A stretch of DNA of 38,030 nucleotides, taken from NCBI GenBank assembly GCA_002726085.1, contig PBRZ01000026.1:1-38030 (forward strand), given 5' to 3'. The DNA comes from Acidobacteriota bacterium. Lineage in GTDB: Bacteria; Acidobacteriota; Vicinamibacteria; Vicinamibacterales; UBA8438. Position numbers and translations under genes: made by a program. Positions 8,638 to 12,414 of the stretch are shown here, one piece after another (the stretch's first letter is position 1; each line of letters starts with the position of its first letter). A model generated the notes under the pieces. It worked only from the letters and a program-made list of their open reading frames with translations. It searched no databases and was not told where the DNA came from.

Positions 8638-9057
8638 CTACCGAACGCCGTCGGTGGGGTCGGCGTTCGGGGGAATCGGCGCTGTTTCAGCGGAGAGTGC
8701 CGTCGTCGTTCTGACGATGAAAAGCTGCTCTCCTGGTCTGATCATGTCGAGCTCGCCACGCGCCACGGCCTCGATCAGACGTGGATCCTCCGTCAGGGCT
8801 TCGACGTAACGATGTAGCTGCCCGTTCTCGGCATGCAGGGCGTCGATGACTTGCTGCAGCTGAGCGTGCTCCCGGTTGGCCCGAAACAGCGCGACGAGCC
8901 CACGCTCGCCCACGAACGCGTTGGCAATCAACAGAATGGTGACAAGCAGCAGCACGTACCGTCCAGTGCGGCGCGGCGTCGGTGTGCGTCGCGGCAGTGG
9001 CGGCAACTCGTTGAGCCGATCGATCGGGGAGCTCTTCGTCACAGTGTCCCGTGCCAT
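8638..9057 (-). CDS. ftsB: FtsB/DivIC-type septum formation initiator
   Basis: A small bitopic membrane protein of 139 residues. A basic, proline-rich cytoplasmic tail (1-31) precedes one membrane helix (about 34-50). A coiled coil follows (about 56-90, with ALFRANREHAQLQQVIDALHAE-type heptads) and then the family's DPRLIEAVARGELDMIRPGEQLFIV segment (91-115). FtsB-type proteins bind FtsL and FtsQ in the divisome. The ATG was chosen because the family is about 100-130 residues and GGGAG lies 11-12 bases upstream; the frame is open further upstream but reads through a promoter. The short acidic tail after 118 is unusual but not unique. It could equally be named DivIC. Confidence 0.85.
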   Translation of the reverse strand: MARDTVTKSSPIDRLNELPPLPRRTPTPRRTGRYVLLLVTILLIANAFVGERGLVALFRANREHAQLQQVIDALHAENGQLHRYVEALTEDPRLIEAVARGELDMIRPGEQLFIVRTTTALSAETAPIPPNADPTDGVR

Positions 9058-9134
9058 GAGGTCGTCACACTCCCAGACCACGCCGGCGCGTCTGCTCGTC
9101 CTCTCCGATCGGAGGGGCACCCATTCATCATCGA

Positions 9135-9170
9135 GGCGCAAGTTATAGTGCATTATGTTGTTGATGTCAA
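9135..9170 (-). promoter_or_regulatory. Sigma70-type promoter of ftsB
   Basis: On the minus strand TTGACA (9165-9170), a 17-bp spacer and TATAAC (9142-9147) give a near-consensus promoter. It would start transcription near 9135, about 78 bp before the ftsB ATG. The -35 box lies inside the palindrome listed next, so a repressor bound there could occlude this promoter. Confidence 0.7.
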
Positions 9171-9186
9171 CAAAAGTATATACTTT
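9158..9186. promoter_or_regulatory. Two adjacent perfect palindromes, candidate operator
   Basis: TTGTTGATGTCAACAA (9158-9173; 7-bp arms, 2-bp centre) is followed with one shared base by the 14-bp palindrome AAAGTATATACTTT (9173-9186). The tract is AT-rich in a GC-rich region. It sits between the divergent ftsB and ribbon-helix-helix genes and overlaps the ftsB -35. It also contains TATACT (9179-9184), a possible plus-strand -10. It looks like an operator for the neighbouring DNA-binding protein; that link is inferred. Confidence 0.55.
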
Positions 9187-9221
9187 GCGACCAGCACGCG
9201 GCATGGTATCGTTCCGCGCCC

Positions 9222-9473
9222 ATGGCCAAGTCCTCGACAAAGCGCCCTCCGGGCCGTCCGCCGGCCGGCAGAGGCGGTCTGGCCGTCACCACGACATACG
9301 TGCAGACCACCCTCCGGCTCGAACCCGAGACGAAGGAGCTGCTGGACGCCCTGACCCGGCTCCTCGGCAGGCCACAGCGCCAGGTGACGGGCGAAGCTCT
9401 CGCGCTCTACGCCCGGCGCCTCAAAGGGTCAGACCGAGAGCTGCTGCGCGGACTGCTCAGGCGGAAGGATTGA
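9222..9473 (+). CDS. Small ribbon-helix-helix-like DNA-binding protein
   Basis: An 83-residue basic protein. An AT-hook-like tail (KRPPGRPPAGRGG, 8-20) precedes a segment resembling a ribbon-helix-helix fold. That segment has a strand TYVQTTLRLEPE (25-36), a helix TKELLDALTRLLG (37-49) and a second helix around QVTGEALALYARRL (54-67), followed by a short charged tail. Such proteins act as dimeric repressors or antitoxins. No toxin-sized gene follows; the next gene, 66 bp on, is a DNA methyltransferase, so it may instead control that gene and itself through the palindromes about 36-64 bp upstream. No Shine-Dalgarno is evident. The fold is assigned by pattern only. Confidence 0.6.
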   Translation: MAKSSTKRPPGRPPAGRGGLAVTTTYVQTTLRLEPETKELLDALTRLLGRPQRQVTGEALALYARRLKGSDRELLRGLLRRKD

Positions 9474-9539
9474 CCGGTCACGAGCTTTCTCCTACCATCC
9501 CGTCCCAGTGCACAGGGTTTTGGCCTGTGTCCCCTCGAC

Positions 9540-10823
9540 ATGAAGCAGCTCCCACTCTCGCGGTCCGAGGGCCCCGCCGTCGGGAGGCTATCTGGAGTCG
9601 ACGCGTTTGAGGACAATCTGCGGCGGTTTGCCTGGGAGGGGAGGCCGACGCGCGTCAAGATGACCGAGACCGATTGCGACGGTCACAGTGTCAGTCTTGA
9701 AACCTACACAAACGAGTTCTGGACCAGTAAGCAGCGGGCCGGAAACAGCCTGCACGAGATCTCCTACCGCGCCTGCTTCAAGCCGCAGCTAGTCGATTTC
9801 TTCGTGCAAAGGCTCACAGAGCCTGGTGAGGTCGTATACGACCCTTTCATGGGTCGCGGAACGACACTCGTCGAGGCCGCCCTACGGGACCGAACCGTTG
9901 CCGGTTGCGACGTGAATCCGCTGAGCCGTGTGCTCACCAAGCCCCGTCTTGCGCCGCCCACGCTAGAACAAGTGTCGGATCGCTTGCACGCCATCGATCT
10001 GACCGACGGCGTCTGCGATCGAGAGGGTTTGGACGTCTTCTTCCACTCCGACACGCTGAAGACAATCTGCGCCCTACGTTCGTATCTGCGGAAGCGTCAG
10101 ATTTCGGGGAAAATGGACACGGTCGACGAGTGGATCGAGATGGTCGCCGTGAATCGGCTCACGGGACACTCGCGCGGGTTCTTTTCGGTCTACACGCTGC
10201 CGCCGAATCAGGCGGTGTCAATCGCCTCGCAGCGGAAGATCAATGCTCGGCGCGGGCAGACGCCGCCCGCCCGCGATGTCGTCCAACTCATTCTCAAGAA
10301 GAGCAAATCACTGCTGCGGGACTGCGACCACGCCACGAGACGACGGCTGGCGGGGCACGCTGGCGGGGCGCAGCTCCTGGTGCGGGCGTCCAGCAGAACT
10401 CCCGAGCTGCAATCTTCTTCGGTCCATCTCGTCGTGACGTCGCCTCCCTTCCTCGACGTTGTCGACTACGCGACGGATAACTGGTTGCGCTGCTGGTTCT
10501 GCGGCATCGAGGCAGACACGGTGCCGATCACGATCGCTCGAAAGCTCGACACGTGGCGCGCGGCGATGACCGACGTGTTCGCCGAACTTCGACGTGTGCT
10601 GGTGCCAGGTGGGCATGTTGCATTCGAAGTGGGTGAAGTGAGGGGCGGTGCGATCAAGCTCGAAGAAACGGCCATCCCTTGTGGGGAGTCGGTGGGGCTC
10701 GAGCCCCTGGCGGTCGTCATCAACTCTCAAACGTTCACCAAGACCGCGAATTGTTGGGGTGTCTCCAACAACCGGAAGGGCACCAACACCAACCGGATCG
10801 TGCTCTTCCGCAAATCCAACTAG
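9540..10823 (+). CDS. Orphan DNA methyltransferase (N4-cytosine or N6-adenine), permuted motif order
   Basis: 427 residues. The AdoMet-binding motif VVYDPFMGRGTTLVEA is at about 98-113 and the catalytic TSPPF is at 300-304. In ordinary beta-class N4/N6 enzymes the order is reversed. The flanks match the beta class (a CFKPQLVDFFV helix before motif I; WRAAMTDVFAELRRVLVPGGHVAFEVG after TSPPF), so it reads as a circularly permuted beta-type enzyme. SPP followed by an aromatic residue is commoner in N4-cytosine enzymes. The central insert (about 140-290) probably holds the target-recognition region. No restriction endonuclease gene is beside it. The start is uncertain: no Shine-Dalgarno is seen, and Met41 is an alternative. 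Together with the regulator upstream it forms an insertion-like module between ftsB and recA. Confidence 0.85.
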   Translation: MKQLPLSRSEGPAVGRLSGVDAFEDNLRRFAWEGRPTRVKMTETDCDGHSVSLETYTNEFWTSKQRAGNSLHEISYRACFKPQLVDFFVQRLTEPGEVVYDPFMGRGTTLVEAALRDRTVAGCDVNPLSRVLTKPRLAPPTLEQVSDRLHAIDLTDGVCDREGLDVFFHSDTLKTICALRSYLRKRQISGKMDTVDEWIEMVAVNRLTGHSRGFFSVYTLPPNQAVSIASQRKINARRGQTPPARDVVQLILKKSKSLLRDCDHATRRRLAGHAGGAQLLVRASSRTPELQSSSVHLVVTSPPFLDVVDYATDNWLRCWFCGIEADTVPITIARKLDTWRAAMTDVFAELRRVLVPGGHVAFEVGEVRGGAIKLEETAIPCGESVGLEPLAVVINSQTFTKTANCWGVSNNRKGTNTNRIVLFRKSN

Positions 10824-10824
10824 T

Positions 10825-10892
10825 GTCCCGAATCAGAAGTCCGTTGCACATGCCCCGCCCGGGAAACAGATGACGGATTTCTGATTCGGGAC
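10825..10892. repeat. 20-bp imperfect inverted repeat between convergent methyltransferase and recA
   Basis: The arms GTCCCGAATCAGAAGTCCGT (10825-10844) and its inverted copy (10873-10892) match at 19 of 20 positions and enclose a 28-base loop. The left arm begins one base after the methyltransferase stop codon, and recA ends 30 bases beyond the right arm. It could be a bidirectional terminator, although no T-run follows, or a small mobile palindrome. Each arm contains one GANTC site. Confidence 0.75.
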
Positions 10893-10922
10893 CCTCGCAA
10901 CGCGGGGTTCCGCCACGGGCTG

Positions 10923-11963
10923 CTAGACGGAGACCGATTCGGTCTCGGGCTCCGCGTCGGTCGTGAGCCCTAGTTCCTTGCGGACTCGCGCGTCGATGGT
11001 GTCGAAGATCTCGGGGTTCTGCTTCAAGAACAGCTTGACCTTTTCGCGACCCTGCCCCAGGCGCTCGCCGCTGTAGGAGAACCAGGTGCCGCTCTTTTCG
11101 ACGATTCGTCGGTCCACGGCCAGATCCAGCAGGTCGCCCTGGCGGGAGACCCCTTCGCCATACATCAGATCGAATTCAGCCATCCGGAACGGTGGGGCCA
11201 CCTTGTTCTTGACCACCTTGACCCGGGTGCGGTTGCCGACCACCTGGTCGCCGTCCTTGATGGCGCCGATGCGGCGGATATCGATTCGGACCGACGAGTA
11301 GAACTTCAATGCGCGGCCGCCGGTGGTGGTCTCCGGACTGCCGAACATGACACCGATCTTTTCGCGTAGCTGATTGATGAAGATGAGACAGGTGCGGGAC
11401 TTCGAGACCACCGCCGTGAGCTTGCGGAGCGCCTGCGACATCAGTCGCGCTTGTAGCCCGACCTGTGCGTCCCCCATTTCGCCGTCGATTTCGGCGCGTG
11501 GCACGAGTGCCGCGACCGAGTCGACAACCACCACGTCGGCGCCGCCCGAGCGAACAAGCACCTCTACGATCTCGAGCGCCTGTTCTCCATTGTCCGGCTG
11601 TGAGACCAGGAGGTTGTCGAGATCGACCCCGAGCTTGTTTGCATAGGTCGGGTCGAGCGCATGCTCGGCGTCCACGAAGGCGGCGGTGCCGCCGCTCGCT
11701 TGTGCCTGGGCGATGATCTGGAGGGTGAGCGTGGTCTTGCCCGATGCCTCGGGACCAAAGATCTCGACGACGCGTCCCCGTGGAACACCGCCGATGCCGA
11801 GCGCGTGGTCGATGCTGATCGAGCCGGTCGAGATGTTTGGAATGGCGGCAACGGCGTCTTGGCCGAGACGCATGATGGCGCCCTTGCCGAACTGCTTTTC
11901 GATCTGCCCGACCGCTATCTCAATGGCTTTCTCACGCTCGCGCGGGCGGTGGTCTTCTTTCAT
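10923..11963 (-). CDS. recA: RecA recombinase
   Basis: Strand-exchange ATPase of homologous recombination and DNA-damage signalling. 346 residues, the usual length. Walker [10 protein letters not shown] is at 70-78, Walker [13 protein letters not shown] at about 143-154, followed by loop L1 EIDGEMGD and the L2-region stretch [22 protein letters not shown]. The C-terminus is acidic, as normal. GAGAGGAAG six bases before the ATG is a strong ribosome site, and a near-consensus promoter lies upstream. No recX or lexA gene is adjacent, because the downstream side is occupied by the convergent methyltransferase module. Confidence 0.99.
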
Positions 11964-12025
11964 CGTTGACTTCCTCTCGACCTGTTGATCTGTTTCCAGG
12001 TGGACGGCATTTCAGGTTGGCAGCT

Positions 12026-12061
12026 AAACGGTATTCTAGGAACGTGCCAGGCGAATGTCAA
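12026..12061 (-). promoter_or_regulatory. Sigma70-type promoter of recA
   Basis: On the minus strand TTGACA (12056-12061) and TAGAAT (12033-12038) are separated by exactly 17 bp, giving a start near 12026, about 63 bases before the recA ATG. No convincing LexA operator of the Escherichia, Bacillus or alphaproteobacterial type was found across it, so regulation is not evident. Confidence 0.75.
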
Positions 12062-12414
12062 GCGAAAATAGATTGATCCAAACTGACCATCTCTTTTAAA
12101 GACAATGTGTTATGAAGATTGTGACTTTCGCCTGTCGAACTGGGTGTTTACAGTTTTGCACGATGACGAGTCCCGACAGTGTGCAGCATGTGAAACAGGT
12201 GTGTCGAGGCGCCCCCGCCATCTGGCATCACCGCGAACTGCTCGGAGCAGTGTCACATCGACACCTCGGAAGCACGCATGACCGGCCGGCCTTGAAAACC
12301 GGCTTGCGGTTGAGTGCCAGCGTTACAATGATGCGGTTCGCGTGTACAGGACAGCTATGCGGTGGTTCTCGAACAGCCCGTTCGGGTGCGCCTTCGACGG
12401 TGCAGGGAGGGCTC
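12062..12414. other. Non-coding gap upstream of the LVIVD propeller gene
   Basis: About 350 bases without a convincing gene. An open frame runs through it into the next gene, but the predicted residues look non-coding (Cys- and His-rich, no signal peptide). It holds a 15-bp palindrome ACTGCTCGGAGCAGT (12237-12251), a short hairpin GCCGG/CCGGC (12285-12303) and a TACAAT box at 12324-12329 without a well-spaced -35. The AT-rich left end carries the recA promoter. Confidence 0.5.

Follow-up and report, generated by a model that had tools for sequence, protein, structure and literature searches.

Putative local control of a second, recA-linked ftsB/DivIC gene by a small RHH-like protein in an acidobacterium

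Genes of the recA-linked division locus

Why do a small ribbon-helix-helix (RHH)-like gene and a solitary DNA methyltransferase gene lie between a division gene and recA, and do the two form a single unit? The window, i.e. the whole stretch of 38,030 nucleotides analysed here, is contig C26 of a Vicinamibacterales-like acidobacterial draft genome (G000; 4.64 Mb in 170 contigs, 88.65% complete). Its genes follow the order M16 peptidase pair, large ORF, DivIC-family gene (minus strand), RHH-like gene (plus), methyltransferase gene (plus) and recA (minus). The large ORF between the M16 peptidase pair and the DivIC gene belongs to no clear family. A sequence-only reading of this DNA had described a small RHH-like gene and an orphan methyltransferase inserted between two core genes, ftsB and recA. 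All four ORFs, DivIC-family, RHH-like, methyltransferase and recA, are borne out, but the genome has two DivIC-family genes, and the 'ftsB' of that reading is just one of them.

The DivIC gene (8638-9057, minus strand, 139 aa) matches Pfam PF04977 well above the cut-off, as canonical FtsB/DivIC proteins do (E=1.9e-17; 63.3 bits for a cut-off of 28.9). Because it scores below the FtsB equivalog cut-off (NCBIfam NF002058; 32 vs 101 bits), we filed it as FtsB-like, not as FtsB proper. The other copy is found beside cutA (G000 contig C80:64266), and the gene of the window is therefore a second FtsB-like gene, which has recA and the M16 peptidase pair as neighbours and not cutA, the neighbour of the canonical one. 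Across the order it is the cutA-linked copy that is widespread, and the recA/M16-linked copy is typical of the family to which the window belongs. Among the draft assemblies, G004, G006, G013, G019 and G024 show the recA-linked copy alone, in a different gene orientation, and others show the cutA-linked copy only. In G007, G014 and G020 there is no DivIC gene between recA and the M16 gene, and the two are direct neighbours. To our knowledge, little has been written on dedicated transcriptional control of ftsB or on duplicate ftsB genes, and a limited full-text search of the literature returned nothing on either in Acidobacteriota.

The recA gene itself (10923-11963, minus strand; Pfam PF00154, E=2e-139) also adjoins DivIC in relatives. 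An apparent gap in recA of G005, considered as an intein, is a run of N. In the region upstream of recA (window 11964-12110), the sequence TTTCGCTTGACATTCGCC is conserved in eight genomes and is followed in most of them by a TAGAAT-like -10 hexamer; it is a candidate SOS box.

An operator-like repeat and the RHH-like gene

The RHH-like gene (9222-9473, plus strand) encodes an 83-aa protein with a basic GRPP N-terminus, a presumed autorepressor. Its match to Pfam RHH_1 is below the cut-off (E=0.032; 14.7 bits for a cut-off of 20.5), and since the RHH fold is deduced from this weak match together with the sequence pattern, the protein is called RHH-like only. Members of the RHH/CopG class are small strand-helix-helix proteins with a basic tail and a palindromic operator in their own upstream region. 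The 83-aa protein resembles the autorepressors of this class (CopG, Arc, MetJ and the ParD/RelB-type antitoxins) by its predicted strand-helix-helix core and basic tail, and by a conserved palindrome in its own upstream/promoter region. It differs from them in that it misses the Pfam and NCBIfam cut-offs, has no toxin partner and has as its presumed target the second ftsB/DivIC gene on the divergent side. A toxin-antitoxin function was discarded, with a RelB-type antitoxin model at 14 vs 50 bits and no toxin-like gene adjoining. PDB matches of the protein to armadillo repeats were judged to be compositional artefacts.

The gap between the DivIC and RHH-like genes harbours the operator-like inverted repeat TTGTTGA-TG-TCAACAA (9158-9173), conserved with the RHH gene in four of four genomes (the window, G002, G005 and G012). 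Two perfect palindromes had been reported upstream of the regulator; this one has perfect 7-bp arms around an unpaired 2-bp centre and is thus not strictly perfect. The sequence TTGNTGATGTCAACAA is conserved in all four RHH genomes, where its exact form occurs once per genome and always at this locus, and it has no copy in four RHH-less relatives. A repeat with 7-bp arms is by itself only mildly unusual in this gap (53 of 2000 shuffles). All four orthologous gaps share a 12-bp core, TGATGTCAACAA, invariant at 12 of 12 positions, compared with at most 7 bp for the longest word common to any of 1000 shuffled gap sets; the four gaps have diverged almost completely outside the operator, and shared ancestry contributes to the conservation of the core.

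The repeat overlaps a predicted DivIC promoter, TTGACA-N17-TATAAC (9142-9170, minus strand), whose -35-like TTGACA (9165-9170) lies inside the operator, 17 bp from the TATAAC hexamer (9142-9147). The same spacing is found in G002, G005 and G012, and TTGACA-N17 overlaps the operator in all four RHH genomes. The -10-like hexamers are TATAAC in the window and G002, TACAAA in G005 and TATAAA in G012, all without the final T, and a strict promoter scan does not list the site. The proposal that a palindrome covers the -35 of the divergent division-gene promoter thus holds as far as a consensus match goes, and the operator-like palindrome is indeed kept along with the regulator in every carrier.

The second palindrome, AAGTATATACTT (9174-9185), is perfect as had been claimed and overlaps a possible -10 of the RHH-like gene (TATACT, 9179-9184). 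A third, CTCCGATCGGAG, lies at 9103-9114. Neither was found at any of the three orthologous loci (L053, L054 and L055), and AAGTATATACTT was ruled out as the operator on this ground; the expectation that the palindromes accompany the regulator in its orthologues is therefore borne out for 9158-9173 and not for AAGTATATACTT. In G002, an insertion of ~150 bp with the inverted ends CATGAATACGGCC ... GGCCGTATTCATG separates the operator from the RHH-like gene (L053:7839-8060) and is probably another MITE. Its presence makes it less certain that transcription of the RHH-like gene has to begin at the operator.

Close orthologues of the 83-aa protein are restricted to 4 of the 162 genomes of the order, those named above, and no further one was found in 396 genomes sampled from the phylum. 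A contig scan with the RHH alignment, from which near-identical genomes may be left out, gave no match either. In all four carriers the gene is divergent from the recA-linked DivIC gene, and in G005 and G012 the RHH-like gene and the operator are present at the locus and the methyltransferase is absent. The three genomes devoid of DivIC at the recA locus (G007, G014 and G020) are also devoid of the RHH orthologue. A tree of the concatenated neighbouring proteins rejects the carriers as one clade (p-AU 0.007), suggesting that the RHH gene is older and that some lineages have lost it. Judged by this distribution, the putative regulator belongs with the recA-linked DivIC gene and not with the methyltransferase.

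Two sister genera (G009 and G016; G010 and G022) have recA and DivIC side by side, with a gap of ~210 bp containing neither the RHH-like nor the methyltransferase gene. Comparison of the recA-ftsB spacing had been suggested for relatives lacking an inserted module; these four genomes do lack both genes, but G005 and G012 have one without the other. In the RHH-less sister genomes, a 27-bp unit, CTTGTACT-N-CGGTAC, occurs three times in tandem within the recA-DivIC gap, with a period of ~47-58 bp (L059:6964-7086, L057:6958-7091, L265:534-664 and equivalents in G010 and G016). Across the family, 14 of 18 matches to a relaxed form of the pattern fall in the recA-DivIC gaps of five genomes (G009, G016, G010, G022 and G156), the other four being single matches in other genomes. 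The array carriers are not rejected as one clade (p-AU 0.136), and no operator shared with this CTTGTAC array was found upstream of recA. The RHH gene plus operator and the array look mutually exclusive.

These sister genera bear on the possibility that the RHH-like and DivIC genes are unrelated neighbours and that the conserved block is either no more than the DivIC promoter or the site of another regulator, with or without a promoter: DivIC stays in place there with a different upstream array and no RHH gene. We regard this as improbable: the block is a palindrome found solely alongside the RHH gene, RHH-less relatives do not have it, and the RHH gene is itself missing where the recA-linked DivIC gene is missing.

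The explanation that we favour, and hold to be reasonably likely, is that a local RHH autorepressor controls the second ftsB/DivIC gene. The RHH-like protein would bind TTGTTGATGTCAACAA as a dimer or a pair of dimers and, once bound over the DivIC promoter, would block RNA polymerase at the -35 and repress its own start on the other side of the operator. The outcome would be feedback control of a supernumerary FtsB.

The solitary methyltransferase

The methyltransferase gene (9540-10823, plus strand) codes for an enzyme with the motifs FMGRGT ... TSPPF, which has the AdoMet and catalytic motifs of the Type II DNA methyltransferase family and matches PADLOC MTase_II PDLC03325 over nearly its full length (E=4e-165) and also the Pfam N6_N4_Mtase family (PF01555, E=5e-15). 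SPP-type motif IV suggests N4-cytosine methylation, and DNA cytosine-N4 methyltransferases are among the nearest solved structures; the enzyme is accordingly described as a predicted N4-cytosine methyltransferase. Its catalytic motifs are invariant in 11 relatives, with a single exception at one position of motif I; the patterns FxGxGT and TSPP hold throughout, and conservation extends over much of the chain. It is under purifying selection, as are the RHH-like and DivIC genes (dN/dS of about 0.17 for the methyltransferase and about 0.12 for the RHH-like gene). The sequence-only reading had named GANTC among the motifs to look for; a CcrM-like GANTC specificity is unlikely, given a motif IV typical of N4-cytosine enzymes and an operator free of GANTC.

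The window enzyme differs from the MTase_II family in having no REase gene. No cognate partner of a Type II restriction-modification system adjoins it and the locus has no room for one, and a search of G000 for the REase type of L205, run with no positive control, found none. REase-like genes adjoin a minority of its relatives, preceding the methyltransferase in about ten of 80 loci, and one of the two REase-like types matches PADLOC REase_II. The family is large, with members in 570 of 584 scanned stretches, mostly from Verrucomicrobiota and Acidobacteriota.

At the recA locus, the methyltransferase is found in the window and in G002 only (81% identity). A solitary enzyme of this large family probably entered the RHH-recA gap later, in the genus of the window. 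Located downstream of the RHH-like gene on the same strand, it would probably be co-expressed with it, yet it has a promoter-like site of its own, TTGACC-N17-TACCAT (9470-9498, plus strand). That site includes the palindrome TGACCGGTCA (9470-9481), shared with G002, a possible self-methylation or control site. We also considered palindromes preceding methyltransferase genes as hints to the target; TGACCGGTCA, common to the two congeners, was the only one found.

A small ORF family (GGFQ...YGQGGF/W) with no family match adjoins the methyltransferase in several loci (L053:5719-6024, L006:2745-3011, L010:1213-1476 and L191:5262-5513) and is absent from the window. In G002, the 500 bp that correspond to the MITE region of the window hold a 102-aa ORF akin to the small ORF of L145 (= L006), L010 and L191, from which it follows that the window may have lost this ORF.

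The sequence-only reading took the regulator and the methyltransferase for one inserted module, bounded on its right by an inverted repeat. The repeat (10822-10895) is real, with 23-nt arms at 91%, but it marks no boundary: it belongs to an internally deleted copy (10820-10893) of an unrelated MITE scattered over the genome. Allowing up to one mismatch, GTCCCGAATCAGAA has ten occurrences in this genome. Full copies are ~160 bp long with terminal inverted repeats framed by CTAG or TTAG-like ends (e.g. G000:C6:1058-1213 and C77:5397-5552, with others on C58, C85, C111 and C135), in keeping with the target-site duplication of a MITE; most of the middle is missing from the window copy, as is its right flank. 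A single mobile module was rejected because the RHH-like gene and operator occur without the methyltransferase in G005 and G012; conversely, the methyltransferase is found with DivIC and without an RHH gene in G032.

Methyltransferases and RHH-like genes at other DivIC loci

About 94 methyltransferase loci were searched with a DivIC profile. DivIC lies near the methyltransferase in the window, G002, L151 (= G032), L139, L154, L165 and L180, and this finding led us to drop the view that the enzyme plainly has nothing to do with DivIC. The arrangements vary: the methyltransferase is between cutA and an RHH-like-DivIC pair in L154 and L180, divergent from such a pair with cutA behind in L165 (whose Actinomycetota label may be a binning error), and separated from the pair by an REase-like remnant in L139. 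In L151, cutA lies between the methyltransferase and DivIC.

The RHH-like genes of L139, L154, L165, L180 and G038 (L227) belong to another family (VKTTVELPEELWRAAKIRAMDERSDLRSVLIEAL) with no credible Pfam match. They are on the same strand as DivIC and directly upstream of it (L139:1332-1511, L154:5365-5520, L165:1211-1387, L180:5369-5599 and L227:2613-2744), with GTATA-rich repeats in front of them, and in G038 the pair occurs with no methyltransferase. As a different RHH-like family thus precedes DivIC directly in five loci, RHH-type control of ftsB seems to recur.

In the enzyme tree, the DivIC-adjoining methyltransferases occupy four separate places within the acidobacterial clade, and an RHH-like gene, from one or the other of two different families, is present in three of them. 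DivIC is the most recurrent neighbour in that clade (7 of 24 loci), and four independent landings beside it would occur by chance with a probability of about 2e-7 under a crude uniform model over 22 rows; an old methyltransferase-DivIC linkage lost many times would be a rival to independent landings. Of the 7 DivIC loci with a methyltransferase, 6 have an RHH-like gene, compared with 3 of 42 lacking the methyltransferase (Fisher 4e-5, or 0.005 after collapsing near relatives). Both sets of counts were made after the pattern had been seen.

Two explanations of the methyltransferase have to be weighed against these figures. The enzyme may be a bystander, mobile or defence-derived, that settles in permissive places beside core genes, with the cutA-DivIC and recA-DivIC gaps as insertion hotspots. 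We give this a little under an even chance; it bears on the methyltransferase alone and does not conflict with an RHH autorepressor acting on DivIC. It fits the size of the family (at least 570 loci), its spread over many phyla, its plasmid-borne relatives, the REase-like genes next to some copies, the varied contexts and the nearby MITE, but a reason is needed for its repeated use of DivIC gaps and for the surplus of RHH genes at them, and the enzyme is under purifying selection.

Alternatively, the three genes could form a functional trio. Methylation by the enzyme, either within or close to the RHH/DivIC control region or at other sites in time with division, would then feed into ftsB expression. 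Such a trio would be consistent with the recurrence beside DivIC, which takes several orientations and involves two different DivIC loci, with its low probability by chance and with the RHH excess. Against it, 17 of the 24 loci of the acidobacterial clade are not near DivIC, the arrangement and the RHH family vary between cases, the linkage was noticed after the fact and errors in MAG binning are possible. We consider it unlikely, and methylation control of division is a possible function at most. Equally doubtful is a broader view, that ftsB-type genes of Acidobacteriota have repeatedly come under local RHH repressors and been coupled to a solitary N4-cytosine methyltransferase, in a recurrent DivIC-RHH-methyltransferase locus assembled several times from different RHH families.

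In Caulobacter, CcrM methylation controls ftsZ and mipZ (PMC3708114). The window resembles that system in combining a solitary methyltransferase with a division gene; CcrM, however, methylates adenine in GANTC, whereas the window enzyme is a predicted N4-cytosine enzyme that lies beside the DivIC gene. The trio would work like the control of ftsZ by CcrM, except that an RHH repressor would take part and the enzyme would be of the N4-cytosine type. Should the methyltransferase link prove true, DNA methylation would be tied to a division gene in a second, unrelated way, beyond the Alphaproteobacteria and through another modified base. Independently of that link, the unit as redrawn here, probably a locally autoregulated second ftsB, comes down to a short DNA site and an 83-aa protein and is directly testable.
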